This document shows, piece by piece, positions 10,495 through 24,682 of a DNA stretch of 64,000 nucleotides. Numbering within the stretch: the first letter of the stretch is position 1; the number at the start of each line of letters is the position of its first letter. This DNA is from Streptomyces rapamycinicus NRRL 5491 (GTDB lineage: Bacteria > Actinomycetota > Actinomycetes > Streptomycetales > Streptomycetaceae). The stretch is from assembly GCF_024298965.1 (NCBI RefSeq), contig NZ_CP085193.1:11966001-12030000 (forward strand), read 5' to 3'. The notes below the pieces were generated by a model. That model saw nothing but the letters and a program-made list of their open reading frames with translations, had not been told where the DNA came from and ran no database searches. A program made the translations under genes and the position numbers.

Positions 10495-11004
10495 TCACGC
10501 GGATACGAGGTGGTTGTAGCGGCTTCGGAAGAACAGCAGGGGTGCGGCCGTGCTGTCGGCGTCGAGGTCGTTGACCCGCCCGATGACGATGTAGTGGTCA
10601 CCGGCGTCGTGCACGGCTTCGATCCCGCAGTCGATCCAGGCGACCACGCCGTCGATGACCGGGTCTCCGTGCGGCCCCGGCTGCCAGGCCACCTCGGCGA
10701 ACTTGTCGCCGCCCGACACCGACAGGGCGCGGCAGATCCCCTCCTGGCCGGTGGCGAGGACGTTGACGCAGAAGGTGCCGCGTTCGGCGATGACCGGGAA
10801 GGTCGACGACGTCTTGCCGGGCAGGAACGCCACGAGTGGAGGCGTGAGTGAGACGGAGGTGAACGACGCGACGGTCATGCCCACCGGCCCGCCTTGTGCG
10901 TCACGCGAAGTGATGGCGGTGATGCCGCTGGGGAAGTGGCCGAGGACGGCCCGGAAACGTGCGGTGTCGGGGCCCGGCTGCTGGGAGCTCGTAGATGTAA
11001 GCAT
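10495..11004 (-). CDS. Flavin reductase (HpaC-type, FMN-binding split barrel)
   Basis: A 169-residue NAD(P)H:flavin oxidoreductase of the short-chain flavin reductase family, which hands reduced flavin to a separate monooxygenase. Family features are FPSGITAITSRD at the N-terminus, GMTVASFTSVSLTPPLVAF at the flavin site, and FCVNVLATGQE. The start codon lies inside a GCATGC palindrome; the promoter (TTGCAT ... TATTTT) would put the transcript start at or beside this ATG, so it is probably leaderless. The same triple operator precedes the catabolic operon starting at 18417, which encodes an LLM monooxygenase, its likely client. Divergent from marR. Confidence 0.88.
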   Translation of the reverse strand: MLTSTSSQQPGPDTARFRAVLGHFPSGITAITSRDAQGGPVGMTVASFTSVSLTPPLVAFLPGKTSSTFPVIAERGTFCVNVLATGQEGICRALSVSGGDKFAEVAWQPGPHGDPVIDGVVAWIDCGIEAVHDAGDHYIVIGRVNDLDADSTAAPLLFFRSRYNHLVSA

Positions 11005-11047
11005 GCTTATAAAATAGAAGCATGCTTAGCATCAATGCAAGCATGCT
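10998..11047. promoter_or_regulatory. Triple GCATGC operator of the flavin reductase/MarR divergon
   Basis: Three palindromes in 50 bases: TAAGCATGCTTA (10998-11009), AAGCATGCTT (11018-11027) and AAGCATGCT (11039-11047), with centres 19 and 21 bases apart. On the minus strand a TTGCAT/TATTTT promoter places the middle palindrome between -35 and -10, ideal for repression. The same arrangement recurs at 18462-18509. The adjacent MarR protein is the obvious ligand (inference). Confidence 0.75.
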
Positions 11048-11081
11048 GATGTTTCGGTCCCGCGGGCCGTATGCTGTACGG

Positions 11082-11603
11082 GTGTCCAGCGCTCTCCCCT
11101 ACATCAACCCGTTCGACGACGGTCGCTCGCCGAACGGGGCTGCCGCAGACATGGACGAAGCGTCCTCGATGATCGATGCGGTCTTCCGGTTCGAGCGGGC
11201 GGTCACCAGGATCGGGAACACCCGACTGCGTCCGTGGAAGATGACGCTGTCCAGCTACACCGCCCTGCGCATCCTGGCCAATCAGCCCCATCTCAGCCTC
11301 GCTCAGCTGTCCCGCCGTTGCTATGCGCGGCCGCAGACCATGACGCGGATGGTCACGCAGCTGGAGAACCGCGGTTTCGTGGCCCGCGCCGCGCATCCGG
11401 AGAGCGAACGGGCGCTCTCGCTCCAGGTCACCGAGGCAGGCCTGGCCGCCTTGGAGGAGATGAGCAACGAGGTTCTCAAGATCAGCGACACATTGAACGC
11501 CACACTGGGGCGGGACGACATCGTCGCCACCGACGGGCGTCTGCGGCAGGCCGCGCTCATGGTGGAGAACGAACTCCGGGACATGGGCCGCCCGGAGGAG
11601 TAG
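11082..11603 (+). CDS. MarR-family regulator of the adjacent catabolic regulon
   Basis: Winged-helix dimeric regulator. The wHTH core reads LSLAQLSRRCYARPQTMTRMVTQLENRGFVAR with wing HPESERALSLQVTEAG. I choose GTG at 11082 (VSSALPYINPF) because TATGCT at 11070-11075 lies 6 bases upstream, giving a leaderless start; the frame is open upstream to an ATG at 11022, but that would place codons in the operator. MarR proteins usually repress aromatic or organic-acid catabolic genes until a ligand binds. Here the triple GCATGC sites at both 11.0 and 18.5 kb argue that it controls the flavin reductase, itself and the minus-strand operon 18417-11688. A strong hairpin follows its stop. Confidence 0.85.
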   Translation: MSSALPYINPFDDGRSPNGAAADMDEASSMIDAVFRFERAVTRIGNTRLRPWKMTLSSYTALRILANQPHLSLAQLSRRCYARPQTMTRMVTQLENRGFVARAAHPESERALSLQVTEAGLAALEEMSNEVLKISDTLNATLGRDDIVATDGRLRQAALMVENELRDMGRPEE

Positions 11604-11618
11604 ACGCGCGGACGACCG

Positions 11619-11640
11619 CCCGCGGGGGAGTCCCCGCGGG
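11619..11640. terminator. Strong GC hairpin between convergent marR and FAD dehydrogenase genes
   Basis: Perfect 9-base stem CCCGCGGGG / CCCCGCGGG with loop GAGT. It is nested inside a wider pair GACGACC (11611-11617) / GGTCGTC (11663-11669). Located in the 84-base convergent gap, it probably terminates from both sides. Confidence 0.75.
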
Positions 11641-11687
11641 ACGGGTCCCCGGCCCGCGCGGTGGTCGTCGGGCCGGGTGAGTCGTCG

Positions 11688-13184
11688 TCAGGCCGGGTGC
11701 GGCGCCGGCGCGGCTTCGGTCGCGGCGGTGCGTCCGGCCGCGCGGCCGAACACCGCGGCGCGCATAAGGGCGGCGCCACCGGGATAGTCGCCGTAGAACA
11801 GACCGCCGATGGCCTCGCCCGCCGCGTACAGGCCGGGCACCGGCGCCCCGTTGGCCCCGAGCGCCCGTCCGTCCGGGTCGATCCGGATGCCGCCGAAGGT
11901 GAAGGTGAGCCCTGCGACCGCGGGGTAGGCGACGTACGGTGGCCGGTCGAGGGGCGCCGCCCAGTGGGACTTGGCCGGGGTGATGCCGGACGTGCCGCGG
12001 TCCTCGCTGACGGTGTCGCCGGGCGCGCAGGCGTTGTTGAACGCCTCGAGCGTGTGCGTCAGCCGGTCCGCGGGCACCCCGATCCGCTCCGCGAGCTCGA
12101 CGACCGTATGCGCGACGATGGGCACCGCCGCGCCGGCGAACTCATCGGCCACCCGGGCCGCGGTGCGCTGGTCGAAGATCTCGAATGCCTCGCACCCGGG
12201 CTGACTCATGATCGCCCTGCCCATCTTCGAGTAGTTCCTGACCCACGGGCCGGGGCTCTCGTCGACGAACCGCTCACCATCGCGGTTGACGAGCACGCCG
12301 AGCCAGAAGCCGTGCAGCGGGAACGGCGGCGAGTCCGCACTGCGCCCCGGTGACGGCACGCTCGGGTCGACCGCGGCCGAATGGCAGCTCGACCACGTCC
12401 CGGCCTTCTCCGCCCCGGCACGCAGCGCGGCGTGGATCCCGTCGCCCGTTGCCAGGCGGGTGCCGCGCAGGCGCACCGTCTCCCACTCCGCCCCCAGATG
12501 CCCGCGGCGCAGTTCACGGCTGGCCTGGAAGCCGCCGGTGGCGACCACCACGGCGTCGGCGGGCACGGTCCGGCTGCCGTCGCCGACCACGGCGCCCGTG
12601 ACCCGGCCATCGCCGCGCCGCACCTCCACCAGCGGTGTGGACCAGTGGATTTCCACGCCGATCCGCTCGGCGTGCGCGAGCAGCGGCCGGATCCCCTCGA
12701 ACCCGCGTGACATTCCCTCGCCGACGCAGGTCAGTATCTGGCCGGGCGGGATGTGCAGGACACTGTCGCGGACCTCGGCCCCCAGAGTGCGGTTGAACGT
12801 GAAGCGGACGCCCTTCGCGGCCAGCCAGCGCACCGTGTCCAACGACCGTTCGGCGAGCGCCCCGACCAGCCGCGGCTCGGCCCGGCCGCCGCTCATCGCC
12901 GACAGCTCGGCCGCGTAGGCATCGCGGGTGTAGGGAGGTGCCTCGATCCGGTCGGCCCTCATGCCCGGCTCGAAGTCCTCCGTGATCGAGGTCAGATCGT
13001 CCGGCCCGTCGTAGCAGAACAGGAACAGACCGCCGGAGAAGGCCGCGTTCCCGCCGACGTCCTCGCGGCTGCCCTTCTCCAGCAGCACCACGCGGGCGCC
13101 GGCCTCGCGGGCGGAGATCGCCGCCGAGAGGCCGGTCAGCCCGGCGCCGGCGACGACGATCGTGGGCGTACGGGTATGCGTCAC
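11688..13184 (-). CDS. FAD-dependent dehydrogenase (tricarballylate dehydrogenase TcuA-/fumarate reductase-like)
   Basis: Flavoprotein of 498 residues. The N-terminal Rossmann motif GAGLTGLSAAISAREAGARVVLLEK binds FAD; GGNAAFSGG is the second conserved contact seen in fumarate reductase/TcuA-type proteins. The C-terminal FAD loop reads GLYAAGEAIGGLFYGDYPGG. These enzymes desaturate dicarboxylic or ring substrates at CH-CH bonds. It is the last gene of the operon begun at 18417, 84 bases after the HMG-CoA lyase-like gene. The real substrate is unknown; a ketosteroid-dehydrogenase-like role is an alternative. Confidence 0.85.
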   Translation of the reverse strand: MTHTRTPTIVVAGAGLTGLSAAISAREAGARVVLLEKGSREDVGGNAAFSGGLFLFCYDGPDDLTSITEDFEPGMRADRIEAPPYTRDAYAAELSAMSGGRAEPRLVGALAERSLDTVRWLAAKGVRFTFNRTLGAEVRDSVLHIPPGQILTCVGEGMSRGFEGIRPLLAHAERIGVEIHWSTPLVEVRRGDGRVTGAVVGDGSRTVPADAVVVATGGFQASRELRRGHLGAEWETVRLRGTRLATGDGIHAALRAGAEKAGTWSSCHSAAVDPSVPSPGRSADSPPFPLHGFWLGVLVNRDGERFVDESPGPWVRNYSKMGRAIMSQPGCEAFEIFDQRTAARVADEFAGAAVPIVAHTVVELAERIGVPADRLTHTLEAFNNACAPGDTVSEDRGTSGITPAKSHWAAPLDRPPYVAYPAVAGLTFTFGGIRIDPDGRALGANGAPVPGLYAAGEAIGGLFYGDYPGGAALMRAAVFGRAAGRTAATEAAPAPHPA

Positions 13185-13268
13185 TGGTCCTCCTGGATTC
13201 GTGCTGCTGAACCGATGTGCGTGGGTCGGCGTGGCGGTGGCGCCTCGGGCGCGAGCTCTGGCCCGGTG

Positions 13269-14204
13269 TCACCAGGTGAAGGCGAGCGGATCGCCGGGGC
13301 GGGCCGTGCTCGGCACGCGGCCGGTGTGCCGGACGAACCCCTTACCGGGCACGCCGACCTCGCCGGTGAGCCAGTTCGCCGTCTCGATGAGGCGGGGCAG
13401 ATCGATACCGGTGTTCACACCGCACAGTTCGAGCATCTGTACGGCGTCCTCGGTGCACAGCCCCCCGCCCTGGGCGCCGGGCATCGCCGGGTGGCCGCCG
13501 CTGCCGGCGAGGGAGGTGTCGATGGCGCGGACGCCGAGTTCGAGGAGCGGGAGCAGGGCGGCGAGGCCCATGCCGCGGCCGTCGTGGATCTGTACGGTCA
13601 GGTTCCCGGGCGGTATGTGCGTGAGCGCGCTGGCGACGAGTTCACGGATCTGGGACGGTGCCGCGTAGCCGGAGGAATCCGCGAGGATCCAGTGCTCCAC
13701 CCCGATGTCGAGGAGCCGCCGGGCCAGCGGCTGGAGATCCTCGCCGGTGCGTGCGGGGCCGGTCGGCCCACCCCAGGCGAAGATGACGTAGGTGCCGAGC
13801 AGGATGTCCTTGTCCGCGGCGTACGCGGCCATGCGCTCCAGCTCGCGCAACGAGTCCGCCGTGGACCGTCCGATGTTGGCGCGGGCGAACTCCTCGTCGG
13901 CGGAGAGCAGGAAATGCGCCGTGTCGGCCCCCGCGTCGACCGCGCGGGCGAGCCCGCGCGCATTGCCGACACAGCAGCCGAGGCTGAGCCCGGGCACCCG
14001 CGGCACCCGGGCGAACACCTCCGCGGCGTCGGCGAGCCCAGGTACGAGATCGGGCCGGACGAAGGAGGACAGCTCGAACCCGCGGACGCCTGCATCGACC
14101 AGGCGCCGCATGAGTTCGATCTTGACGTCGGTCGGGACCGTATGGTCCTGGAAGGTCAACCGGGGCGCGATCTCGCGGATGCGCACTCCGTCGGGCAGGG
14201 GCAT
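13269..14204 (-). CDS. HMG-CoA lyase-family (DRE-TIM) protein with atypical active site
   Basis: A 311-residue TIM-barrel protein resembling hydroxymethylglutaryl-CoA lyase, which splits HMG-CoA to acetyl-CoA and acetoacetate. The overall frame fits (ELSSFVRPDLVPGLADAAEVF, DTAHFLLSADEEF). Key residues do not: the usual PRDGLQ metal/catalytic motif is PRLTFQ (residues 14-19), the HCHD metal pair is QIHD (205-208), and the catalytic Cys of GLGGCPY is His238 in GSGGHPA. It either uses different chemistry or is not a lyase of this type. It sits between acyl-CoA ligase (9-base gap) and FAD dehydrogenase in one operon, so a role in carbon-chain cleavage of the shared substrate remains likely. Confidence 0.75.
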   Translation of the reverse strand: MPLPDGVRIREIAPRLTFQDHTVPTDVKIELMRRLVDAGVRGFELSSFVRPDLVPGLADAAEVFARVPRVPGLSLGCCVGNARGLARAVDAGADTAHFLLSADEEFARANIGRSTADSLRELERMAAYAADKDILLGTYVIFAWGGPTGPARTGEDLQPLARRLLDIGVEHWILADSSGYAAPSQIRELVASALTHIPPGNLTVQIHDGRGMGLAALLPLLELGVRAIDTSLAGSGGHPAMPGAQGGGLCTEDAVQMLELCGVNTGIDLPRLIETANWLTGEVGVPGKGFVRHTGRVPSTARPGDPLAFTW

Positions 14205-14213
14205 GGTGGTTCC

Positions 14214-15857
14214 TCAGGAGTGGCGGGTGGGTGCGAGCCCGGCGGCCAGTGCGTCCCAGGCCCCGACGCGGCCCTGGTCACGCAGCCGGTGCTTGCGCAC
14301 CTTGCCGTTCGGGGTGATGGGAAGCCGGTCCACGACGCGGTAGTAGCGGGGGACCATGAAGTGCGGCATCGAGTGGTCGCAGTGGGCGAACAGCGTGGGG
14401 AAGTCCAGCTCATGGCCGGGTTCGGGCTGTACGACGACGAGGACCTCGTCCTCGCCCAGCTCCGACGGGGTGCCGATGGCGGCGGCGGCCATGACGCCGG
14501 GGCAGGCGAGCAGAACCGATTCGATCTCGTGGGAGGAGATGTTCTCACCGCGGCGGCGCAGCGCGTCCTTCTTGCGGTCGATGAAGTAGAAGTAGCCGTC
14601 CTGGTCCGTGTAGCCCAGGTCGCCGGTGTGCCACCAGAGATCCTTCATGGTCGCGAGTGTCGCTTCGGGATCGCGGTGGTAGCCGGAGAACATGATGTCC
14701 GGCAGGCGGGGCCGGTACACGATCTCCCCGGCCCGGCCGGGCGCGGCACGCTGCCCCGATTCGTCGTGGATCTCCAGAACGGACGATTCGGTGGGCAGTC
14801 CCAGCGACCCGGCCTTCCGGGCGTCAAGAGGGTTGTAGAGAACGTTCTTGATCTCGGTGAGCCCGTAGCCCTCGACGACATGGACGCCGAAGCGCTCCTC
14901 GAACGGATGCAGTACCTGCGGCGGGGCGGGCGCGGCGAACACCTTCGTCGCCCGGTGGTCGCGATCGCGGTCGGACGGGGGCTGCGCCAGGAGCATCGGC
15001 AGGACCGAGCCGAGCGCGTTGAACTGGGTGACCCGGTGGGTGCGCAGCTCGTCCCAGAACCTGCTGGCGCTGAACCGGCGCCCGAGGACCACGGTCGCCC
15101 CCGCGTAGAAGGCGTGCAGGGATATGTTGATCTGCGCGGCGCCGTGGAAGAGCGGCAGACAGGTGTAGAGCCGCTCATCGGCGGTCGTGGCCAGCTGCGC
15201 CGCGCATTCGCGCGCGGCGACCAGGGGCATCAGATGCGGGTGCACAACTCCCTTGCTGCGCCCGGTCGTTCCGGACGTGAGCATGATCGCGACCGGGTCC
15301 CGCGGCGCGACGCGGGGGAGCTCCGCCGCCGGGTCACCGGCCGCGAGCAGCTCGTTCCAGGTCCGTACCGTCACCCCGGGCGGGGTGCGGCGCCGGCGGT
15401 CGCCGTCGAGCAGGACGACGGTCTCGAGGGTGTGCGGTACGTCCGGCAGGTCGGCGACGAGTTCCAGCAGGGCCGCGTCGGTGACCAGCACCCGCACGCC
15501 GGTGCTGCGGAGCGCGTGGTCGAGGAAGGAGCCCTTGTAGGCGATGTTGATCGGGACCTCGACGGCCCCCGCGCGGGCCGCTCCCAGCCAGGCGAGCACG
15601 TATTCGGGCCGGTTGGGCAGGAAGATCCCGACCGAGCCGCCGGGGGCGGCGCCCGCCGATACCAGACCGCGAGCCACGTCGGTGACGGCGGCGTCGAGCG
15701 CGCCGTAGGTCAGCTCGCTGTCTTCGAAGACGAGCGCGGGCTTGTCGGGGTGCAGCGCGGCGCGGGCGGCGAGGAGCCCGCCGACCGTGCCGTCGGCGAG
15801 ATCGGAGAATCCCTCCAGGCCCGTGGCACCATTGCCCCGGGCGGTGGATACCGTCAT
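14214..15857 (-). CDS. Acyl-CoA ligase (AMP-forming; CaiC/FadD-like)
   Basis: ANL-superfamily enzyme of 547 residues that activates a carboxylic acid with ATP and CoA. The P-loop-like A3 motif is LTSGTTGRSKG (residues 193-203). Further core motifs are GYGLTEIKN, WHTGDLGYTDQDGYFYFIDRKKD and, near the C-terminus, the lysine-bearing TPNGKVRKHRLRD. It overlaps the upstream LLM monooxygenase gene by 4 bases (ATGA), so the two are translationally coupled. It probably supplies the CoA thioester for the downstream steps. Substrate class cannot be fixed; crotonobetaine/carnitine-CoA ligase-type sequences look closest. Confidence 0.87.
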   Translation of the reverse strand: MTVSTARGNGATGLEGFSDLADGTVGGLLAARAALHPDKPALVFEDSELTYGALDAAVTDVARGLVSAGAAPGGSVGIFLPNRPEYVLAWLGAARAGAVEVPINIAYKGSFLDHALRSTGVRVLVTDAALLELVADLPDVPHTLETVVLLDGDRRRRTPPGVTVRTWNELLAAGDPAAELPRVAPRDPVAIMLTSGTTGRSKGVVHPHLMPLVAARECAAQLATTADERLYTCLPLFHGAAQINISLHAFYAGATVVLGRRFSASRFWDELRTHRVTQFNALGSVLPMLLAQPPSDRDRDHRATKVFAAPAPPQVLHPFEERFGVHVVEGYGLTEIKNVLYNPLDARKAGSLGLPTESSVLEIHDESGQRAAPGRAGEIVYRPRLPDIMFSGYHRDPEATLATMKDLWWHTGDLGYTDQDGYFYFIDRKKDALRRRGENISSHEIESVLLACPGVMAAAAIGTPSELGEDEVLVVVQPEPGHELDFPTLFAHCDHSMPHFMVPRYYRVVDRLPITPNGKVRKHRLRDQGRVGAWDALAAGLAPTRHS

Positions 15858-16882
15858 GCCAGCTCCTTCTTCGCCCGGGCCAGGAAGCCCTCCAACGACG
15901 GGTCCCAGGCCGCTTCGGCGCCGGTCGTCACCAGAAACGTGTCGACCCCGAGCTCCCGGTACCTGCCGAGGGTGTCCAGGACGCGCTCCTCGGTGCCGAC
16001 GAGCGCCTGGGAGTTGGCGAAGCCGCCCAGGAGCTTGGTCAGGCCGGTCCAGAAGCAGTCGTCGTGCAGTTCGTGGTCGGTGAGCGCGAGAGCCCGTTGC
16101 CGCCCGACGGAGGTGTCGGTCGACGACGAGCGCAGGAAGGCCGGGGTTCCGGCGGCCTCGGCGATCTGCCGCTCCACGGCCCGGGCCCGGGCCCAGGCCT
16201 CGTCGTCGGTGTCACCGATGAACAGGCGCAGGCTCAGCGAGAACCGCATGGCACGGCCGTGGCCTTCGGCCGCCGCGGTGACCCGGTCGATGCGTTCCCT
16301 GGTGCCGGCGAGCGGCTCCCCCCACAGCATGTACAGGTCGGCGTGGCGGGCGCCGAAGTCCACGGCGTCGGCGCTCTCGCCGCCCATGAAGATGGGCACC
16401 TGGCCCTGCACCGGCTTGGTCCCCAGCTTCACCGCCTCGGCCGTGTAGTACTCGCCGTGGTGGTCGAAGGGCTCGGTCTCGGTCCAGGCGCGGCGGATGA
16501 TGTCGAGGTACTCGACCGCCCGCCGGTAGCGGTCGGCCTTGGGGAGGTCGTCCGACTCGCGGCGCAGATCCTTGTCGGAGCCGCCCACGACCACGTTGAC
16601 GGCGAGCCTGCCCCGCGCGAGTACGTCGAGGGTGGCGAAGTAGCGCGCGGCGGCCACCGGCGCCATCACGCCCGGACGGTGCGCGACGATGGGCGAGAAC
16701 CTCTCCGACGTCGCCAGCGCGAACGGCGCGGTGGCGTGGTTGTGCGGCCAGGTGGAGGAGTACCCGAGCAGGACCCGGTCGATGACCTGCGAGCGGTCCA
16801 GTTCCTGGATCCTGGAGATCATGAGGTCGGGGTCGGTTTCAGTGGTCTGAAGGGGCTGCAGCCCGGTGAGGAATTCGACCAT
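15854..16882 (-). CDS. LLM-class flavin-dependent monooxygenase (SsuD-like)
   Basis: Luciferase-like TIM-barrel monooxygenase of 342 residues using reduced FMN supplied in trans. The segments RPGVMAPVAAARYFATLDVLARGRLAVNVVVGG and HHGEYYTAEAV follow the alkanesulfonate monooxygenase pattern. Its likely reductant source is the flavin reductase at 10.5-11.0 kb, which carries the same operator although it is 5 kb away on the chromosome. The gene starts 7 bases after the thioesterase and overlaps the ligase. It may hydroxylate or desulfonate an organic acid; other LLM activities (Baeyer-Villiger, amine oxidation) are possible. Confidence 0.87.
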   Translation of the reverse strand: MVEFLTGLQPLQTTETDPDLMISRIQELDRSQVIDRVLLGYSSTWPHNHATAPFALATSERFSPIVAHRPGVMAPVAAARYFATLDVLARGRLAVNVVVGGSDKDLRRESDDLPKADRYRRAVEYLDIIRRAWTETEPFDHHGEYYTAEAVKLGTKPVQGQVPIFMGGESADAVDFGARHADLYMLWGEPLAGTRERIDRVTAAAEGHGRAMRFSLSLRLFIGDTDDEAWARARAVERQIAEAAGTPAFLRSSSTDTSVGRQRALALTDHELHDDCFWTGLTKLLGGFANSQALVGTEERVLDTLGRYRELGVDTFLVTTGAEAAWDPSLEGFLARAKKELA

Positions 16883-16889
16883 GGCGTTC

Positions 16890-17432
16890 TCAGCTTTCTG
16901 CGTGGGGTCCGTTGGGTGATGGTGATCGGCGGGCGAGCCAGGCTTCGTGGCGGGCGAAGTGGTCGGGTCGGCGGGTCCGCAGCTCGGCCCGGGCGGTGGC
17001 CAGCGCCGTACCGGCGAGCGTCATCCCGGCGGACACCTCCCACCGTCTGCCGGTGTGCCGCTCGATCCGCGCCAGGACGTCCACGGGCCGCCCGACCGGG
17101 ACCGGGCGGAGGTAGCGGACCGTCAGCGACTTGGTGACCAGCCGCGGTTCGATCCGCAGCGCGACGACGCTGAGCGCGTCGTCGAACACCGCGGCGGTCC
17201 AGCCGCCGTGCGCGACACCGGGCCCGCCGTGCCAGAACGGTGGGCAGACGACCTCGAACCGCACCGCGCCGTCGCGCACCTCGGCGATCTCGACGCCCAG
17301 GCGGCAGGCGTCGTGCGGAGCGCAGCCGCCGCACAGGAGCCGGCCCGACGGGGAGGGCTCGATCGTGAAGGCGTCGGGGTCGTCCGTGAGGGCGTCGGGA
17401 CCCTCCGCGAAGGTGTCGGGGTCCTCAGCCAC
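16890..17432 (-). CDS. PaaI-type hotdog-fold thioesterase
   Basis: A 180-residue protein whose C-terminal two-thirds is a hotdog domain: FWHGGPGVAHGGWTAAVFDDALSVVA contains the HGG and downstream acidic residue used by PaaI-like acyl-CoA thioesterases, followed by KSLTVRYLRPVPVGRPV. The first 30 residues are acidic and low-complexity (repeats of DPDAF/DALTDD), with a small Cys cluster CGGCAPHDAC that may bind metal or be structural. It overlaps the upstream dehydrogenase gene by 8 bases. It probably rescues CoA or releases a pathway intermediate. Confidence 0.8.
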   Translation of the reverse strand: MAEDPDTFAEGPDALTDDPDAFTIEPSPSGRLLCGGCAPHDACRLGVEIAEVRDGAVRFEVVCPPFWHGGPGVAHGGWTAAVFDDALSVVALRIEPRLVTKSLTVRYLRPVPVGRPVDVLARIERHTGRRWEVSAGMTLAGTALATARAELRTRRPDHFARHEAWLARRSPSPNGPHAES

Positions 17433-18417
17433 CCGCGGCCTCCTTGCGCAGGGCCGCCACCACCGCTTCGGGTACGTCGATGGCGCCGCGCCGGAGCGTC
17501 TCGTCCCGGCGGCTCGCCGAGCGGTCGAACGGCATCCGCACCGCGTGGCCGTCCTCGACGGGACGGGTGGCGCGGACCGATTCGGCGAAGGCCGCGACCC
17601 GCCGCCGGTAGTCGTCCGGGTCGGTGAGCACGCCCGGATCGACCAGTACGACGAAGAAGCCGCAGTCCGAAACGCCCGGCGGGTCGGCGGCCGCGCCGGT
17701 CATCATGCCGAGCAACTGGACGACCAGGGCGAGCCCGGAGCCCTTGTGCGCGCCCCATACGCCGAACGCGCCCCCGAGCGCGGCGGCCGGGTCGAGCGTC
17801 GGGGCCCCGGCCGCGTCGTAGGCCTGGCCGGGTGCCAGCTTCTCTCCGAGCCGCGCCTTCAGCCGCACCTCCCCGTACATCACGGCGGAGGTGCCGATGT
17901 CCCAGATGACCGGAGTCGGGGTGGCCGGGAACCCGAACGCGATCGGGTTGGTCCCGAACCGGGCTTCGGTGCCGCCGTGCGGGGCCACCACCGCCGGTCC
18001 GCTGCCCGCGATCATCCCGGCGAGCCCGGCGGCCGCGGCCTTCTCCAGGTAGTACGAGAACATCCCGGTGTACCAGGTGTTGTGCGCGCCGACGACCGCG
18101 ATTCCCTGGGCGCGGGCCTTCGCCATGGCCAGCCGCAACGCGTGCGTACCGACGAGGTAGCCCACCTGGTCGCCGCCGTCCACGGTGGCGGACACCGGCG
18201 TCTCGGCGACGATCCGGATCGGCCGCGGCGGCGCCTCGGTGGTGCGAATGCGCTCCGCTATGGACAGCGCGCGGGCGAGCCCGCCGAAGGACAGCCCGCG
18301 CAGTTCGCAGTCGACCAGATGATCGGCGATGGTCTCGGCGGCCTCGGCGGAATGCCCGCAGGAGGTCATCGCCGCCGCGACGAGTGCGCGGGCGTCGGGG
18401 AGGGACAGAGCCGTCAT
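17425..18417 (-). CDS. Ldh_2-family malate/L-lactate/ureidoglycolate-type dehydrogenase
   Basis: A 330-residue NAD(P)-dependent 2-hydroxyacid dehydrogenase of the non-Rossmann YlbC/AllD/MdhC family. Recognisable segments are AVVGAHNTWYTGMFSYYLEKAA, HGGTEARFGTNPIAFGFPA and GAFGVWGAHKGSGLALVVQLLG. ATG at 18417 is chosen over the open upstream frame because TGGAGG precedes it at good spacing. It is the first gene of the six-gene operon, about 50 bases below the inferred transcript start in the triple operator. It would interconvert a 2-hydroxy and a 2-keto acid of the pathway. Confidence 0.87.
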   Translation of the reverse strand: MTALSLPDARALVAAAMTSCGHSAEAAETIADHLVDCELRGLSFGGLARALSIAERIRTTEAPPRPIRIVAETPVSATVDGGDQVGYLVGTHALRLAMAKARAQGIAVVGAHNTWYTGMFSYYLEKAAAAGLAGMIAGSGPAVVAPHGGTEARFGTNPIAFGFPATPTPVIWDIGTSAVMYGEVRLKARLGEKLAPGQAYDAAGAPTLDPAAALGGAFGVWGAHKGSGLALVVQLLGMMTGAAADPPGVSDCGFFVVLVDPGVLTDPDDYRRRVAAFAESVRATRPVEDGHAVRMPFDRSASRRDETLRRGAIDVPEAVVAALRKEAAGG

Positions 18418-18461
18418 GAGCCGACCTCCACGGTGTGGGAGCTGGGGATTCGCCCGTCCGT

Positions 18462-18509
18462 AAGCATGCTGAGACAATATAAGCATGCGTACTGGATAGC
18501 AAGCATGCT
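18462..18509 (-). promoter_or_regulatory. Promoter and triple GCATGC operator of the catabolic operon
   Basis: Three AAGCATGC boxes (18462-18470, 18481-18488, 18501-18509) have centres 19 and 20 bases apart. On the minus strand TTGCTA, a 17-base spacer and TATTGT make a good sigma-70-like promoter, with the middle box inside the spacer. The layout copies the operator at 10998-11047 almost base for base around each box, which indicates shared control by the MarR protein encoded at 11082. Confidence 0.78.
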
Positions 18510-18567
18510 GATACCCGGGCGGGCTGTCGATGGGGGTGTGTACGCGCGCGGGGCGGCAGGGGGTGCG

Positions 18568-18603: not shown

Positions 18604-19002
18604 TCACATCACGGCGTCGGTCTGGAGCGGGCCCGCGGTGATGCGCAGTGTCCGGACGCGAACCGGCTCTTCCTGGTCGAGGTAGAAGATGTGCATGAAC
18701 GGGGCGCGCACCACCTGGTCCGGCGCGCTCTTCCTGGCCATGGTCGCCTCGCCGCGCAGCAGGCGGACGCCGTCGCCCGCGGCCCAGAACTCCAGAACCT
18801 CGTGCGTGATGTTCAGCGGCTCGTCGATCTTGACGAAGAACGCCTTGATGGCCTCGGCGCCGTGGATGTGCGCGGTGCCGAAGTGCATCTCGGTGTCCTC
18901 GGTCAGCGGTGCGAAGCCCTCGTCGAACTCCAGGGTGTCGATGGCGTCCATGAACTTCAGGACCCAGCCGGGCACGGATGTCGCGTGTGCAGTGTCTGTC
19001 AT
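18604..19002 (-). CDS. SnoaL/NTF2-like small protein
   Basis: A 132-residue protein of the cone-shaped alpha+beta barrel (NTF2/SnoaL) type: FMDAIDTLEFDEGFAPLTEDTEMHFG, then IHGAEAIKAFFVKIDEPL and a C-terminal beta-sheet (MHIFYLDQEEPVRVRTLRI). Members act as isomerases, cyclases, dehydratases or ligand-binding proteins; nothing here selects one. The start codon is immediately downstream of a 23-base palindrome, and an HxlR regulator gene lies just upstream on the same strand, suggesting that HxlR controls it. Confidence 0.75.
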   Translation of the reverse strand: MTDTAHATSVPGWVLKFMDAIDTLEFDEGFAPLTEDTEMHFGTAHIHGAEAIKAFFVKIDEPLNITHEVLEFWAAGDGVRLLRGEATMARKSAPDQVVRAPFMHIFYLDQEEPVRVRTLRITAGPLQTDAVM

Positions 19003-19003
19003 G

Positions 19004-19026
19004 ACTAGTAGCGTAACGCTACTAGT
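19004..19026. promoter_or_regulatory. 23-base perfect palindrome, probable HxlR operator
   Basis: Two 11-base arms, ACTAGTAGCGT and ACGCTACTAGT, flank one central base, directly against the start codon of the NTF2-like gene. A related TAGTAGT motif recurs upstream of the HxlR gene at about 19530-19560. Perfect arms of this length are very unlikely by chance in 72% GC DNA. Confidence 0.75.
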
Positions 19027-19047
19027 TTCAATTCGCTATTAGCCTGA

Positions 19048-19509
19048 TCAGCGGGCGCCGTCTTCCTCGGCGGGCACCGGTCGCAGGGTCGACGCCTCGA
19101 CCGGCTGGTGGCAGCTGCTGCACGCGAGGTACGGATTGGTCGGGTTGCCGCACACCGTGTGCATCAGTGGGTGCCGGCTGATGTCGCTGTCGGTCGCATG
19201 GCTCTCGGCCCAGCGCGTGATGGCCGCGATGGCCGGGACGACGAGTTCACGGGCGCTGTCGGTGAGCTCGTACTCGTACCACGGCTTGTCCGCGCGGTAG
19301 GCGCGCTTGGTGAGCAGACCCAGTTCGGTCAGGCTGTTCAGCCGCGCGGTGAGGATGTTCGCCGAAATGCCCAGCGCTCGCTTGAGCTCGCCGAACCGGC
19401 CGACACCGAAGAACACCTCCCGCAGGATCTGGTAGTTCCAGCGCTCGGAGATCGCGGCCAGGAACTCCTGGCCGTGCTGGAAGGTGATGCGGCTCCCGCG
19501 GTCGGGCAC
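19048..19509 (-). CDS. HxlR-family transcriptional regulator with CxxC tail
   Basis: Winged-helix regulator of about 153 residues. The core reads AISERWNYQILREVFFGVGRFGELKRALGISANILTARLNSLTELGLLTK, typical of HxlR. The GTG at 19509 is chosen because AAGAGGAG sits 7 bases before it; the frame stays open to 19635 without a comparable site. The C-terminus carries NPYLACSSCHQPVE, a CxxC pair that could bind metal or sense redox/aldehyde stress, as in several HxlR proteins. It probably controls itself and the NTF2-like gene 45 bases downstream via the palindrome. Confidence 0.85.
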   Translation of the reverse strand: MPDRGSRITFQHGQEFLAAISERWNYQILREVFFGVGRFGELKRALGISANILTARLNSLTELGLLTKRAYRADKPWYEYELTDSARELVVPAIAAITRWAESHATDSDISRHPLMHTVCGNPTNPYLACSSCHQPVEASTLRPVPAEEDGAR

Positions 19510-19694
19510 GGCTTCTCCTCTTGGGTGATCCCGGTAGTAGTCTTGAATCGAAAGTAGTCCTGTAATGCTACCGGTGGCCGTGCCGACGTGCCCAAGCCCC
19601 GCCGCTTGGGCGGAAGTTGTGCCCATCGAGATCAAATCACTGCTTTAATTAGGTAGCTGATCTTGAGTCCCGGCCCCTCGGAAAGGCAGCCTTG

Positions 19695-20066
19695 ATGTCC
19701 CCGGTCCTCTACTCGTCCCGCTCCCGTTCCGAGGTTCCGTTCGAGGCTGCCGACGCCGGTGTTCTCCGCGTCATGTCCAACTCCCGAACCCCGGTGTTCT
19801 GCACCGTGCACGCGAGTGGACGACGCCGGTACGGCTACTGGCAGCCGTACGATTCCGTCACCAACAGGGGCGGCTGCTACGCCGCGCTGCCCACCCCCGT
19901 ATGCGACAGGCTGTACTCCCAGGGGCGGATCACTCTCGGTGAGCCCCTGGTGGATCCGGCCAAGACCACATACCGCGTGTGGCCCGCTCATGGCCCGGTC
20001 GCGCCGGTACGCATCCCGGCGGCGCCCCTGTCCGCGATGGCGGTGGCACAGGTGCTCGCCGCCTGA
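19695..20066 (+). CDS. Small orphan protein, unknown function
   Basis: A 123-residue protein starting MSPVLYSSRS with AAAGG eight bases upstream. It is soluble, with Tyr/Arg-rich stretches (HASGRRRYGYWQPYDSVTNRGGCYAAL) and a C-terminal Ala-rich helix. It has no recognised domain or signal peptide. The distribution of hydrophobic residues and high third-position GC support coding. It is divergent from the HxlR gene and converges on the MaoC gene. Confidence 0.6.
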   Translation: MSPVLYSSRSRSEVPFEAADAGVLRVMSNSRTPVFCTVHASGRRRYGYWQPYDSVTNRGGCYAALPTPVCDRLYSQGRITLGEPLVDPAKTTYRVWPAHGPVAPVRIPAAPLSAMAVAQVLAA

Positions 20067-20153
20067 GTCGAGGTTCCGGGAAGCCGGTCCGGCGGTGCGG
20101 TGGTCGGCGGCGTCGGCGGCCGGACTCGCCGGTCTTCTCCGTGGTGCGGCAGG

Positions 20154-20609
20154 TCAGACGTAGAAGCGGGACAGACTCTGCACCACGGCAGCGGGCTTCG
20201 TGCCGCCGTCCACCTCGATCGTGCCGTCGACGGTGATCTGGACGCCGCCGGGTACGTCCTCGACCGAGGTGAGCCGGGCCACCAGCCGTATGCGGGACCC
20301 GGCCTTCACCGGCGCCGGGAAGCGCACCTTGTTCAGGCCGTAGTTCACCTTGGTGGTCACGCCCCGTACGTCCAGGAGTTGGGTGAAGAGGGGGATGAAC
20401 AGGGACAACGTGAGGTAGCCGTGCGCGATCGGCGCGCCGAAGGGGCCCTGGGCCGCTCGCTCCGGGTCGGTGTGGATCCACTGGTGATCGTCGGTGGCAT
20501 CGGCGAAGGTGCCGATGCGGTCCTGGGTGACCTCGATCCACTCGCTGGTGCCGAGGTCCGCGTCGGCGAGCTTCTTCAGTTCGTCCAGACCGTTGACGGT
20601 GATGCTCAT
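20154..20609 (-). CDS. MaoC-like (R)-specific enoyl-CoA hydratase/dehydratase
   Basis: Hotdog-fold hydratase of 151 residues. The hydratase motif region is FADATDDHQWIHTDPERA, followed by GPFGAPIAHGYLTLSLFIPL. It would add water to a trans-2-enoyl-CoA, complementing the acyl-CoA synthetase and SDR of the same operon. Its ATG overlaps the stop of the synthetase gene (ATGA), so translation is coupled. It is the last gene of the operon running from 23953. Confidence 0.88.
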   Translation of the reverse strand: MSITVNGLDELKKLADADLGTSEWIEVTQDRIGTFADATDDHQWIHTDPERAAQGPFGAPIAHGYLTLSLFIPLFTQLLDVRGVTTKVNYGLNKVRFPAPVKAGSRIRLVARLTSVEDVPGGVQITVDGTIEVDGGTKPAAVVQSLSRFYV

Positions 20610-22132
20610 GAATCGGCTTCCTGTTCGGGGGCGGGCGTGCCGTAGCGGTCGCGCACCCGGGACTTGAGGAGCTTTCCGGAGGCGGTGCGCGGAAGTTCGT
20701 CCGCGACCACCACCGACTTGGGGATCTTGTACTTGGCGAGCCGCCCGGACAGTGATGCCAGCACCTGCTCCGGGTCGAGTCCGGTGCCCGCCGCCGGGAC
20801 GACGACCGCCCGTGGCACCTCGCCCCATGTGTCGTCCGGGACACCGATCACCGCGCACTCGGCGATGTCCGGGTGGGCGAGGAGGAGATCTTCGATCTCG
20901 GCGGGGTAGACGTTCTCGCCGCCGGAGATGATCATGTCCTTGATCCGGTCGACGATGTACACATAACCGTCTTCGTCGACCCGGGCCGCGTCCCCGCTGC
21001 GGAACCAGCCGCCCTCGAACGCGGCCTCCGTCTCCTCGGGCAGCCCCCAGTAGCCGGCCATCACATGTGGTCCGCGCACCACCACTTCGCCGGTCTCGCC
21101 GGTGCCGACCGGGGTGAGGCCGGGCCGTACGACCCGTACGTCGCTGAAGAAGTGCGGTACGCCCGCGGAGCCCGCCTTGTCGGCGGCGTGCTCGGCGTCC
21201 AGGAAGAGTGTGCCGGGCGCGGCCTCGGTCATGCCGTAGCCCTGGAGGAAGGTGAGCCCGCGTTCCTGGTAGGTGGCGATGAGCGGGGTCGGTACCGGGG
21301 ATCCGCCGCAGGTGAGGATGCGGAGCGAGGACAGATCGGCGTTCGCCCAGCGGGGATGCCGGGCCACCTGGCCGAACATCGCCGGCACCCCGAACATGAA
21401 GGTGATGCGATGCCGTTCGATCAGGTCCAGGGTCGTCCCCGGATCGAAGGCCTCCACCAGGACGCAGGTGCCGCCCTTGAGCAGTACCGGCAAGGTGATC
21501 ATGTTCAGCCCGGCGGTGTGGAACAGCGGGGCGGACACCAGGGCGCGCTCGTCGGCGAACAGATCGTGGTCGACCAGTACATTGACGGCGTTCCAGATGA
21601 TGTTGGAGTGGGTGAGCATCGCGCCCTTGGGGCGGCCGGTCGTCCCCGAGGTGTACATGATGAGGCAGGTGTCGTCGGGGGAGACCGGTTCATCGATCGG
21701 CTCGGCCGACGCGGCCGCCAGGGCCTGTTCGTATGTGTCGCCGATCTCGATACAGGTCCGTACATCGGTGTCGGCGGGCAGTCCGGCGACGAGCCCGGCT
21801 TGTGCGGCACCGTGGATGAGGGCTTTGGCGCCGGAGTCGGCGAGCTGGTACGCGATCTCGGGGCCGGTGAGCCGGGTGTTGAGGGGGACGAAGACGGCGC
21901 CGAGCAGGCCGGCGGCGAACAGGGTCTCCAGATAGGCGGGGTGGTTGGGGCCGAGGTGGGCGATGCGGTCGCCACGCCTGATGCCCCGGGCGCGCAGGGC
22001 ATGGGCGAGGCGGTTGGTACGGGTGTGCAGGGTGCGGTAGTCGGTCGACCGCTCGCCGTGGATCAGGGCCGTGCGGTTCGGGGTCTTACGGGCCCGGCGT
22101 GCGGGCCATGACCCCAGTCCCTCGTTGCGCAT
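20606..22132 (-). CDS. Fatty/aryl acyl-CoA synthetase (FadD-like)
   Basis: ANL enzyme of 508 residues. The A3 motif is MYTSGTTGRPKGAML; later motifs are GYGMTEAAP, GWFRSGDAARVDEDGYVYIVDRIKDMI and the catalytic-lysine segment LPRTASGKLLKSRVRD. It activates a carboxylic acid to its CoA thioester. It starts 10 bases after the amidohydrolase and overlaps the MaoC gene. With SDR and MaoC it makes a short beta-oxidation-like set; no thiolase or acyl-CoA dehydrogenase is in the operon. Confidence 0.9.
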   Translation of the reverse strand: MRNEGLGSWPARRARKTPNRTALIHGERSTDYRTLHTRTNRLAHALRARGIRRGDRIAHLGPNHPAYLETLFAAGLLGAVFVPLNTRLTGPEIAYQLADSGAKALIHGAAQAGLVAGLPADTDVRTCIEIGDTYEQALAAASAEPIDEPVSPDDTCLIMYTSGTTGRPKGAMLTHSNIIWNAVNVLVDHDLFADERALVSAPLFHTAGLNMITLPVLLKGGTCVLVEAFDPGTTLDLIERHRITFMFGVPAMFGQVARHPRWANADLSSLRILTCGGSPVPTPLIATYQERGLTFLQGYGMTEAAPGTLFLDAEHAADKAGSAGVPHFFSDVRVVRPGLTPVGTGETGEVVVRGPHVMAGYWGLPEETEAAFEGGWFRSGDAARVDEDGYVYIVDRIKDMIISGGENVYPAEIEDLLLAHPDIAECAVIGVPDDTWGEVPRAVVVPAAGTGLDPEQVLASLSGRLAKYKIPKSVVVADELPRTASGKLLKSRVRDRYGTPAPEQEADS

Positions 22133-22142
22133 CCGGCACCCC

Positions 22143-23018
22143 TTACGGTTGTGTCAGTCCGAGCAGCCGGGCCGCGTTCTCCTTGAGGATCTTCGGCTTG
22201 ACCGCGTCCTTGATGGAGAGCTTGTCGAAGTCGGCCAGCCATCGGTCCGGGGTGAGCACCGGGAAGTCCGAACCGAACAGGACCTTGTCCTTCAGCAGTG
22301 TGTTGGCGTACTGCACAAGCTGCGGCGGGAAGTACTTCGGCGACCAGCCGGACAGGTCGATGTGCACGCCGGGCTTGTGGGTCGCCACCGCCAGCGCCTC
22401 GTCCTGCCAGGGGAACGAGGGGTGCGCCAGGATGATCTTCAGATGCGGGAAGTCGGCGGCCACGTCGTCCACATGGAGCGGGTTGGAGTACTTCAGCCGG
22501 ATGCCGCCCCCGCCGGGCACGCCGGCGCCGATGCCGGTCTGGCCGGTGTGGAAGAGAGCGATGGTGCCGGTCTCCTCGATCACCTCGTACAGGCCGTACG
22601 CCACCGAGCGGTCGTCGGGGAAGAAACCCTGGACACTGGGGTGGAACTTGAAGCCCTTCACGCCGTACTCCTCGACCAGCCGCCGGGCCCGCCGTACCCC
22701 CGCCTTCCCCCGGAAGGGGTCGATGGAGGCGAAGGGGATGAGGACGTCCGCGTTGGCGGCGGCTGCCTCGGCGACCTCCTCGTTCGGGACGGGCTCGGTG
22801 CCGGTGGCGGACTCGGCGTCCACGGTGAAGATGACGGCGGCCATCCGCCGTTCGCGGTAGTAGGCGGCCGTTTCCTCGATGGTGGGCTTCCGTTTCCCCT
22901 CGACCTTGAAGTAGGCGGCGGAGGCGGCGTGCAGATCGTCGTCCAGGGAGGAGTGGCCCTTGGAGGACACCTCCGCGTGGGTGTGGACGTCGATGGCGAC
23001 CAGGTTCCGGAGGTCCAT
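22143..23018 (-). CDS. Amidohydrolase-2 family metal-dependent hydrolase/decarboxylase
   Basis: A 291-residue TIM-barrel metalloenzyme of the ACMSD/amidohydrolase-2 family. Metal-binding landmarks are DVHTHAE near the N-terminus, GFKFHPSVQGF, FHTGQTG, ILAHPSFPW and FGSDFPVLTPDRW, supplying the usual His and Asp ligands. Members hydrolyse C-N/C-O bonds or decarboxylate aromatic acids. The start overlaps the SDR stop (ATGA). A decarboxylase or ring-fission role before CoA activation is plausible but unproved. Confidence 0.85.
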   Translation of the reverse strand: MDLRNLVAIDVHTHAEVSSKGHSSLDDDLHAASAAYFKVEGKRKPTIEETAAYYRERRMAAVIFTVDAESATGTEPVPNEEVAEAAAANADVLIPFASIDPFRGKAGVRRARRLVEEYGVKGFKFHPSVQGFFPDDRSVAYGLYEVIEETGTIALFHTGQTGIGAGVPGGGGIRLKYSNPLHVDDVAADFPHLKIILAHPSFPWQDEALAVATHKPGVHIDLSGWSPKYFPPQLVQYANTLLKDKVLFGSDFPVLTPDRWLADFDKLSIKDAVKPKILKENAARLLGLTQP

Positions 23019-23953
23019 CACGCCTCCGGGGTCTTCGGCGCGGGGATGCCCACCGACTGCGGCTCGGCGCCGATCGATGTGGGCCAGGCGTCGGCGAGGG
23101 CCTCGGAGGTCCACCCGCCGTCCGCGTAGGCGGTCCGGATCTCCTGCGGATGTGACCAGAGCGCCACCTTGTCGCCGCCGATGCCGACGCACTGGCCGGT
23201 GATGCCGCGGGCGGCGTCGGAGGCCAGGAAGGGGACGAGGGCGGCGCAGTCCTCCGGGGTGCCGAATCCCTCGCCCTTGCGCAGGAAGTCCGGCAGCGGT
23301 TCGCCGTTCCTCAGGGCCTCCACATACGGGGCGAAGGCGGGAATGGTCTCGGTCATCGCGGTGGCGGCGACCGGCACGATCGCGTTGACGGTGATGTCCG
23401 CGCGGGACAGTTCCATGGACCAGGTGCGGGCCATGGCGGCGATTCCGGCCTTGGCGGCGGCGTAGTTGGTCTGGCCGAAGTTGCCGCGCTGCCCGGCCGG
23501 GGAGCCGACGAGGACGAGCGTGCCGCCCTCGCCCTGTTCGCGCATGCGCAACGAGGCGGCGCGGGCGCAGGTGAAGGTGGCTCGCAGATGGGTGGTGACG
23601 ACCGCGTCGAAGTCCTCGTCGGTCATCTTCCAGAGCACCTTGTCGCGCAGGATGCCCGCGTTGGTGACCAGGATGTCGAGCCGGCCGAACTCCGCTACGG
23701 CACGGTTCACCAGCCGGTCGGCGGCCTCCGCGGAGCCGACCGGGACCACCTCGGCCACGGCGGTGCCACCCGCCTCGGTGATGGATTTGACGGCCTGTTC
23801 GGCCACGGCTTCGTCGACATCGTTGACGACCACGGACGCGCCGTGGGCGGCGAGGGCGTGTGCGTAGGCGAGGCCGAGGCCCCGGCCGCTGCCGGTGACG
23901 ACGGCGGCCTTGCCGGTCAGATCGATGGTGGGCACGAGCGGATCCCTTCGCAT
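23018..23953 (-). CDS. SDR, (R)-3-hydroxyacyl-CoA dehydrogenase-like
   Basis: A 311-residue SDR of the type found in multifunctional beta-oxidation enzymes. Motifs are VTGSGRGLGLAYAHAL (cofactor loop), VNDVDEA, TNAGILRD, the active-site region VLVGSPAGQRG and NYAAAKAG (YxxxK). The long C-terminal extension after the Rossmann core resembles the HSD17B4 group. It is the first gene of the four-gene minus-strand operon and divergent from a MarR gene. It probably oxidises a hydroxyacyl-CoA formed by the MaoC hydratase. Confidence 0.88.
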   Translation of the reverse strand: MRRDPLVPTIDLTGKAAVVTGSGRGLGLAYAHALAAHGASVVVNDVDEAVAEQAVKSITEAGGTAVAEVVPVGSAEAADRLVNRAVAEFGRLDILVTNAGILRDKVLWKMTDEDFDAVVTTHLRATFTCARAASLRMREQGEGGTLVLVGSPAGQRGNFGQTNYAAAKAGIAAMARTWSMELSRADITVNAIVPVAATAMTETIPAFAPYVEALRNGEPLPDFLRKGEGFGTPEDCAALVPFLASDAARGITGQCVGIGGDKVALWSHPQEIRTAYADGGWTSEALADAWPTSIGAEPQSVGIPAPKTPEA

Positions 23954-24018
23954 GGGTGCGCCTGTCCGGCGCGGAGTGCGGCGGCGAGATCGAAGCTAAG
24001 CGCAATAATTGGTGTCGT

Positions 24019-24030
24019 CAACAGTTGTTG
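24019..24030. promoter_or_regulatory. Inverted repeat between SDR operon and divergent MarR gene
   Basis: CAACA-GT-TGTTG, perfect 5-base arms, inside an AT-richer stretch between the two divergent starts. It is a candidate operator for the neighbouring MarR protein (inference). Confidence 0.5.
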
Positions 24031-24047
24031 TTCGCCTCGGGTGCGCC

Positions 24048-24608: not shown

Positions 24609-24682
24609 CCCGCCGGACGGCCGGCGACAACCGCCGCCGGGTGCCGGCTGCCGCGTGTGCGGGGGCCTCGTAATGTATGCGT

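Follow-up and report, generated by a model that had tools for sequence, protein, structure and literature searches.

Triple-box arrays as probable operators of a single MarR repressor at a flavin reductase gene and a separate catabolic operon in Streptomyces rapamycinicus

The 64,000-nucleotide stretch of Streptomyces rapamycinicus NRRL 5491 analyzed here (contig NZ_CP085193.1, positions 11,966,001 to 12,030,000; hereafter the window, in whose numbering positions are given) contains a flavin reductase gene (flavR), a divergent gene for a MarR-family regulator (marR) and a six-gene catabolic operon. Our subject is the two arrays of short palindromic boxes, one in front of flavR and one in front of the operon, that an earlier reading of the same DNA (the initial annotation) had proposed as the operators of a single MarR regulon. 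The order of genes is flavR on the minus strand, marR on the plus strand and then six co-directional minus-strand genes (Table 1), which match the operon named in that annotation: a 2-hydroxyacid dehydrogenase (Ldh2), a 4HBT thioesterase, a luciferase-like monooxygenase (LLM), a CoA ligase, an HMG-CoA lyase-like protein and a flavin adenine dinucleotide (FAD)-dependent oxidoreductase.

The 173-residue MarR protein carries the winged-helix domain of its family, matching PF12802 (40.8 bits versus a cutoff of 27) in addition to the MarR model in Table 1, while an identity as HpaR, the homoprotocatechuate regulator, was rejected (TIGR02337, 44.1 bits versus an equivalog cutoff of 121.2). Several enzymes fall short of a specific name: flavR scores 189 bits against the NCBIfam HsaB model, under its cutoff of 230, and LLM scores under the cutoff of all NCBIfam equivalogs listed, its closest solved sequences being alkanesulfonate monooxygenases. 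A flavin reductase (PF01613) and a luciferase-like monooxygenase (PF00296) are encoded together, as in a two-component monooxygenase dependent on reduced flavin mononucleotide (FMNH2). In such systems the flavin reductase is the natural source of FMNH2 for the monooxygenase, and LLM is likely the partner of flavR. A tricarboxylic or branched acid is hinted at as the pathway substrate, too weakly to be claimed: the last operon gene passes the cutoff of one tricarballylate dehydrogenase (TcuA) model and fails that of the other (TIGR02485, 210.9 bits, under 372.55), a TcuC-like transporter scores under its cutoff, and MmgE/PrpD-like genes occur at the locus in relatives, with a homologue in the window's genome at 31% identity only.

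Table 1 Genes, operator boxes and predicted promoters of the locus, in window coordinates unless a locus number of a relative is given.
Feature	Position	Strand	Basis or remark
flavR, flavin reductase (HsaB/HpaC/StyB-like reductase component)	10495..11004	-	Pfam PF01613, 146.9 bits
marR, MarR-family repressor (P0001, 173 aa)	11082..11603	+	Pfam MarR PF01047, 50.7 bits vs cutoff 24.6
Operon gene 1, Ldh_2-family 2-hydroxyacid dehydrogenase (Ldh2)	17425..18417	-	PF02615, 271.3 bits
Operon gene 2, 4HBT thioesterase	16890..17432	-	PF03061, 43.7 bits
Operon gene 3, luciferase-like monooxygenase (LLM)	15854..16882	-	PF00296, 167.6 bits
Operon gene 4, acyl-CoA ligase	14214..15857	-	PF00501, 243.1 bits
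Operon gene 5, HMG-CoA lyase-like	13269..14204	-	PF00682, 83.1 bits; NF004283, 199.5, under cutoff 246
Operon gene 6, FAD-dependent dehydrogenase, tricarballylate-dehydrogenase-like (TcuA)	11688..13184	-	NF006130, 418.9 bits vs cutoff 369
Operator box 1, site 1 (GTAAGCATGCTTAT)	10997..11010		sequence read
Operator box 2, site 1 (AGAAGCATGCTTAG)	11016..11029		sequence read
Operator box 3, site 1 (GCAAGCATGCTGAT)	11037..11050		sequence read
Operator box 1, site 2 (GTAAGCATGCTGAG)	18460..18473		sequence read
Operator box 2, site 2 (ATAAGCATGCGTAC)	18479..18492		sequence read
Operator box 3, site 2 (GCAAGCATGCTGAT)	18499..18512		sequence read
Predicted flavR promoter	11011..11040	-	-35 TTGCAT (11040-11035), 18-bp spacer, -10 TATTTT (11016-11011)
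Predicted operon promoter	18474..18502	-	-35 TTGCTA (18502-18497), 17-bp spacer, -10 TATTGT (18479-18474)
Predicted marR -10 (TATGCT) and putative leaderless GTG start at 11082	11070..11084	+	inferred from sequence
Putative leaderless mini-ORF MLTDGRIPSSHTVEVGS	18414..18467	-	ATG in box 1; stop TGA overlaps Ldh2 ATG
MmgE/PrpD-like gene at cluster edge	L058 10228-12224		box pair
MmgE/PrpD-like gene at cluster edge	L021 10927-12378		box pair
MmgE/PrpD-like gene at cluster edge	L025 1219-3228		single box
ribBA (DHBP synthase + GTP cyclohydrolase II) after marR, Nocardia	L023 10511-11766
ribBA (DHBP synthase + GTP cyclohydrolase II) after marR, Sciscionella	L025 10539-11775

Three AAGCATGC boxes stand at each of two sites, spaced as the initial annotation had described (19-21 bases). 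At site 1, in the intergenic region shared by flavR and the divergent marR, an arrangement typical of a MarR regulon, they start at 10999, 11018 and 11039 (start-to-start 19 and 21 base pairs, bp; array span 10999-11046), and at site 2, upstream of the operon, they start at 18462, 18481 and 18501 (19 and 20 bp; span 18462-18508). The arrays are 7.5 kb apart, with marR and the convergent six-gene operon in between. Clustering of AAGCATGC boxes far exceeds chance, with 1e-9 same-orientation triplets at steps of 17-23 expected per 64 kb (calculated under a first-order Markov model of the window). Single hexamers and decamers were dropped as evidence, since their counts in the window are at chance level: GCATGC is not enriched there (15 observed versus 24 expected), and AAGCATGCTT with up to two mismatches occurs 8 times versus 6.5 expected, a count reached in 36 of 100 shuffles. 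A scan of the window with the box weight matrix found no box of at least 12 bits outside the two arrays.

The initial annotation had named many unrelated copies of the triplet in the genome as a result that would count against one regulon, and a search of the whole genome (a single contig of 12,466,108 bases, or 12.47 Mb) found none: AAGCATGC-N8-14-AAGCATGC has five matches, all within the two arrays, and a 19-bp box pair with up to two mismatches occurs at no place in the genome beyond them. Looser patterns are more widespread. AAGCATGCTK occurs at two places besides the arrays. GCATGC-N10-18-GCATGC occurs at 13, of which 4 fall within the arrays and 9 outside; these 9 include a short GCATGC microsatellite (G000:C1:11920568-11920589), which lies about 56 kb from site 1 and is unrelated to the arrays. 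As a control, each pattern was read backwards (CGTACGAA type). The backward pattern outnumbered the true one in the GCATGC-N10-18-GCATGC search (139 versus 13 per strand), the AAGCATGCTK search (14 and 7 versus 6 and 3) and the search for 19-bp pairs with up to two mismatches (3 and 5 versus 2 and 2), while for AAGCATGC-N8-14-AAGCATGC it gave 0 and 1 versus 4 and 1. Since this genome contains the backward word more often, raw loose-pair counts are no evidence either way; AAGCATGC pairs at fixed spacing, unlike loose pairs, count as evidence. Neither of the two single AAGCATGCTG places elsewhere in the genome was taken as a target, one (L106) being covered by open frames and the other (L105) being a possible gene start but unpaired and weaker (16.2 bits). 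At L105 1501 (G000:C1:2171565-2171574), an ATG within the box opens a frame beginning MLLRLFRRHPREWG, an arrangement like that of flavR.

Both arrays lie over predicted minus-strand promoters, and at both, box 2 sits in the spacer between the predicted -35 and -10 hexamers (Table 1), which bears out the position that the initial annotation gave the middle box. The flavR ATG (11004-11002) falls within box 1 (GC-ATG-C, 11001-11006), and flavR read from the ATG of box 1 begins M-L-T in 19 of 19 flavR arrays tabulated, so the operator would dictate the first residues of the flavR protein. Since the A of the flavR ATG lies 7 nucleotides past the predicted -10, the flavR transcript is probably leaderless. 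On the other strand, the predicted marR -35 overlaps box 3, and the predicted marR -10 reads TATGCT in the Streptomyces orthologues printed and TATCCT in L020. The operon arrays retain the ATG in box 1, where it opens a mini open reading frame (mini-ORF) whose stop overlaps the Ldh2 start as ATGA in 8 of 12 operon arrays, the overlap being absent from S465, G545, L022 and G297. In the window, Ldh2 starts at ATG 18417 with GGAGG upstream, and the mini-ORF is possibly a relic of a flavR start.

Our comparison drew on 17 genomes, which supplied 16 orthologous arrays at flavR and 12 at the operon (28 in total), with three second-copy arrays (S465, G545 and G566) kept apart. Boxes 2 and 3 were located by their distance from box 1, set at 19 for the former and, depending on the array, at 39 or 40 for the latter. 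In 28 of 28 arrays a promoter is predicted on the strand running from box 3 to box 1 (TTG(C/T)NN at box 3, a spacer of 17 or 18 bp, then TANNNT), the A of the ATG is 7 nucleotides past the predicted -10, and the boxes overlie the predicted promoter; the three second-copy arrays differ by a one-base shift of the -35. A good box 3 stands 39 or 40 bp from box 1 in 26 of the 28, the exceptions being the G448 flavR array (weak) and Sciscionella (none). Exact GCATGC cores number three in 14 arrays, two in 12 and one in 2, so three exact boxes are not obligatory. The box consensus, built from 36 distinct boxes in exact pairs (the window plus 19 loci), is RTAAGCATGCTTAY, a palindrome of 12-14 bp that falls within the usual operator length (about 12-20 bp). 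Twenty-three arrays have 39-bp spacing, and over 21 of them (G261 flavR, in which box 1 is inexact, and Sciscionella omitted), mean majority identity is 0.98 for box 3, 0.83 for box 2 and 0.96 for box 1, and 0.61 for the spacer between boxes 3 and 2 and 0.51-0.55 for the flanks; the spacer between boxes 2 and 1 is conserved (0.81) because it holds the -10. The second-copy arrays have boxes 1 and 2 and no box 3, and the G448 operon array has one additional box beyond box 3.

Across genomes, the array tracks the regulator. Named relatives of the MarR protein come from five Streptomyces, one Nocardia, one Amycolatopsis and one Sciscionella, and the same array stands beside MarR orthologues in Streptomyces, Nocardia, Amycolatopsis and G003, a member of another genus in the family. 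The regulator was found (E<=1e-20) in 10 of 392 Streptomyces genomes and the pair pattern AAGCATGC-N8-33-AAGCATGC in 15 of 392, with the pattern present in 10 of 10 genomes with MarR versus 5 of 382 without it (Fisher p = 1.4e-16, a value that ignores relatedness). The five pair-positive, MarR-negative genomes (G247, G390, G427, G452 and G548) hold six pairs, each crossed by open frames, at spacings of 21, 22, 27, 28, 36 and 41, of which only the 21-bp pair (G548) falls within the spacing range of real arrays. Among nine genomes of relatives searched, eight contain the pair pattern, the exception being Sciscionella. A family sample had MarR orthologues in 2 of 200 genomes, the window's own included, with the G003 orthologue at 70% identity; a phylum sample had one in 1 of 396 genomes, the window's own, so this MarR clade is rare. 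Of 17 MarR sequences aligned, 16 share an identical RPQTMTR motif in the presumed recognition helix.

Gene order in relatives connects the two arrays. In Nocardia, Amycolatopsis, Sciscionella and G003, flavR is the first gene of a co-directional catabolic row, divergent from marR, with a single array, and the second copies in S465, G545 and G566 show the same flavR-first order behind one array. In the relatives from outside Streptomyces, flavR and the catabolic operon seem to form a single unit served by one array. In the window's own Streptomyces clade, flavR stands apart from the operon and each half has its own array. In S465 and G545 the DNA following the operon array still holds a flavR relic (76-78% over 59 bp, E 7e-8 and 6e-9). 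Most simply, the operon array would be the former flavR promoter, the change presumably having run from the joined to the split order. With the co-occurrence of array and MarR, the flavR-first relatives and the relic, the initial annotation's reading of the two separated units as one MarR regulon is strongly supported by comparative sequence evidence.

Some genes at these loci vary. The thioesterase was not matched in the Sciscionella and G003 loci, nor the FAD dehydrogenase in G003; in the second copies the latter is a fragment or was not matched, and in Amycolatopsis flavR is followed by a transporter gene. The FAD dehydrogenase gene that ends the operon is matched only in part in S. rugosispiralis (L019 10640-11243) and S. 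violaceusniger (L020 10646-11127). Beyond the operon, the window (18604-25501) contains SnoaL, HxlR, MaoC, CoA ligase, amidohydrolase, SDR, second MarR and PaaX genes, and parts of this block accompany the operon in relatives.

Boxes also occur at other genes in relatives. Pairs 19 bp apart stand in the region from which NIPSNAP and MmgE/PrpD diverge in Amycolatopsis, and before MmgE/PrpD in S465, while the NIPSNAP-MmgE/PrpD site of Sciscionella has a single box and no box of at least 12 bits was seen at the Nocardia NIPSNAP gene; NIPSNAP accompanies the MmgE/PrpD-like gene in L058 and L025. At the marR end, before ribBA, Nocardia has two boxes (one weak) and Sciscionella one. In G425, an array stands at a separate flavR, a single box lies between Ldh2 and LLM, and one box lies at the start of a transporter gene. 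The presence of boxes at genes other than flavR argues for a real operator rather than conserved promoter text, and the ribBA boxes suggest a flavin-supply regulon.

Taken together, these patterns make it very probable that the MarR protein encoded at 11082-11603 uses both arrays as operators and would repress flavR and the operon jointly, and marR itself, until released by a ligand, the second array existing because an ancestral flavR-first operon was split. Without inducer, MarR dimers would occupy the 12-14 bp palindromes at all six boxes. At the catabolic promoters, box 3 would lie over the -35, box 2 within the spacer and up against the -10, and box 1 over the predicted start point, and at flavR also over the start codon, giving a dimer row of about 55 bp that would block RNA polymerase at both. 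Steps of 19-21 bp amount to two helical turns or slightly less, so that adjacent dimers would line up end to end along roughly the same face of the DNA, and co-operativity between them, reported for PecS of V. vulnificus, is plausible. Overlap of the array with the marR promoter would lead to autorepression. MarR would be released by an inducer, which is probably either the substrate of the pathway or an early intermediate (CoA or oxidized), and the flavin reductase and the FMNH2-dependent monooxygenase operon would be switched on together. When the ancestral operon split, the operon would have kept the old flavR promoter with its array, while the in-place flavR copy decayed.

A number of observations weigh against this picture. 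The weight-matrix counts (three good boxes in 21 of the 28 arrays, two in 6 and one in 1) rest on a matrix derived from exact boxes, so its scores favor exact boxes. Box 2 has decayed in several arrays and box 3 in the G448 flavR array, and such losses, including that of box 3 in the three second copies, indicate that three dimers are not always needed. The array of the flavR-first locus in Sciscionella (L025) is decayed, with one good box only between flavR and marR, even though its MarR is 77% identical, and G425 (MarR 53% identical) has one weak box between marR and a divergent Ldh2. The backward control matched in many of the 392 Streptomyces genomes, so part of the scarcity of the true pattern comes from the word itself being rare. 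The flavR-relic comparison gave short matches only in the window and in L022, and the predicted marR -35 is weak. Finally, the G566 operon copy (L097 2811-9661) has an array and a partly matched flavR but no adjacent marR, and the only MarR homologue of that genome at E<=1e-20 is 7.8 Mb away, in the second cluster copy, so this array would need MarR in trans.

The rival explanations are not fully exclusive, as an activator would still bind the boxes. Several regulators are encoded within 14 kb, and the operon array adjoins the SnoaL and HxlR genes, so the boxes might instead be the operator of the HxlR protein (19048-19635), the second MarR (24009-24608) or PaaX (24677-25501), with the MarR at 11082 incidental. 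However, tblastn at E<=1e-8 found no homologue of these three in the loci of about 20 kb from Nocardia, Amycolatopsis, Sciscionella and G003, in each of which a MarR orthologue adjoins the array, and the pattern tracks MarR in 10 of 10 genomes; we consider a different regulator very unlikely. There is also a slim chance, marginally lower still, that MarR binds the boxes and activates, or acts as a mixed activator and repressor. Some MarR proteins do activate, as AcsR is reported to do at one target (PMC13118786), but the boxes here overlap the -35, the -10 spacer and the start point of both predicted catabolic promoters, a position that would occlude polymerase.

The least probable account, to which we give hardly any credence, is that the boxes are mainly promoter and start-codon text (GCATGCTTAC with the flavR ATG-CTT-AC) kept by descent rather than a protein operator. 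In keeping with this account, every lineage tabulated has M-L-T at the start of the flavR protein, and a flavR promoter is the probable ancestor of the operon array. Yet boxes 2 and 3 lie upstream of the start point and still retain the palindrome in most arrays, the spacer between boxes 3 and 2 and the flanks have diverged, and paired boxes 19 bp apart occur at unrelated genes (MmgE/PrpD-NIPSNAP in Amycolatopsis, MmgE/PrpD in S465 and ribBA in Nocardia).

A wider reading is tentative, and we hold it to be possible but somewhat doubtful: the fixed three-palindrome operator (19 + 20/21 bp) of this MarR clade may support a co-operative dimer row over the -35, spacer and leaderless start codon, and may form a movable flavin-supply regulon that joins ribBA (in Nocardia and Sciscionella), flavR and the FMNH2-monooxygenase operon, its members kept together after the split. 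The box before ribBA in these two relatives suggests that extra flavin is made alongside flavin-using enzymes. More broadly, the locus offers a testable operator and regulon for an uncharacterized flavin-dependent catabolic pathway of a few actinomycetes, and an operon that was apparently split with both halves remaining under the same repressor, since the operon would have kept its old operator-bearing promoter. Once the inducer is known, regulator and array could serve as an inducible promoter.

As a system, this appears to be a fairly ordinary kind of gene control, well supported by the sequence comparisons. The initial annotation had called short palindromes of 8-10 bases in triplets unusual for MarR; its observation of the arrays stands and its one-regulon reading is upheld by comparison among genomes, but the claim of unusualness does not hold. 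The full box is a 12-14 bp palindrome, the size of SCO3205 and SlyA sites, and there are published cases of three operators, at a single promoter under NadR (PMC2791445) and for PecS of A. fabrum, whose three palindromic sites lie between divergent genes (PMC6391409). Triple MarR operators are thus already known, and the tight row with its fixed 19 + 20/21 spacing is the less common feature. In the open-licence literature, of which the papers cited here were considered in part, we found no published match to such a row and no publication, by title or abstract, on the operator AAGCATGC/AAGCATGCTT/AGCATGCT; in the portion of the NadR paper covered, AGCATGCT was not seen as an operator (PMC2791445).

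The comparisons that follow draw on the same partial texts. NadR likewise has three MarR operators at one promoter and is released by a small aromatic acid, but its operators stand around a repeat tract, with looping proposed, rather than in a 19 + 20 bp row, and its host and target differ (PMC2791445). PecS of V. vulnificus binds co-operatively and can fill the intergenic region, whereas PecS has an 18-bp consensus and an efflux-pump target, and there is overlap between two of the sites in A. fabrum (PMC6391409). The SlyA palindrome TTAGCAAGCTAA is of the same length (12 bp), with several motifs per promoter, but SlyA counter-silences H-NS at AT-rich promoters, while the geometry here suggests simple occlusion (PMC2156107). 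SCO3205 of Streptomyces coelicolor, also an actinobacterial MarR protein with a 12-bp pseudopalindromic consensus, has two operators upstream of its own gene and further ones elsewhere in the genome, but its consensus TTnAAnnnTCAA is unrelated in sequence, and the portion of that account considered mentions no conserved triple array (PMC3737563). ForZ of Streptomyces formicae has a MarR site on the start point of the divergent gene, with a leaderless transcript discussed, though its site is a single 16-bp imperfect palindrome genome-wide and its role is in antibiotic export (PMC12421854). CrtR of Corynebacterium glutamicum is divergent from the operon that it represses, autoregulated and restricted to a small local regulon, and crtR is reported to be leaderless, but it probably has one operator, with a TTAA motif 25-28 bp upstream of the start point (PMC5401885). 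In biological setting, IadR (MarR_73) of Variovorax differs in its substrate (auxin) and gene set, but it is likewise a repressor beside a catabolic locus that is released by the pathway substrate (PMC9613470).

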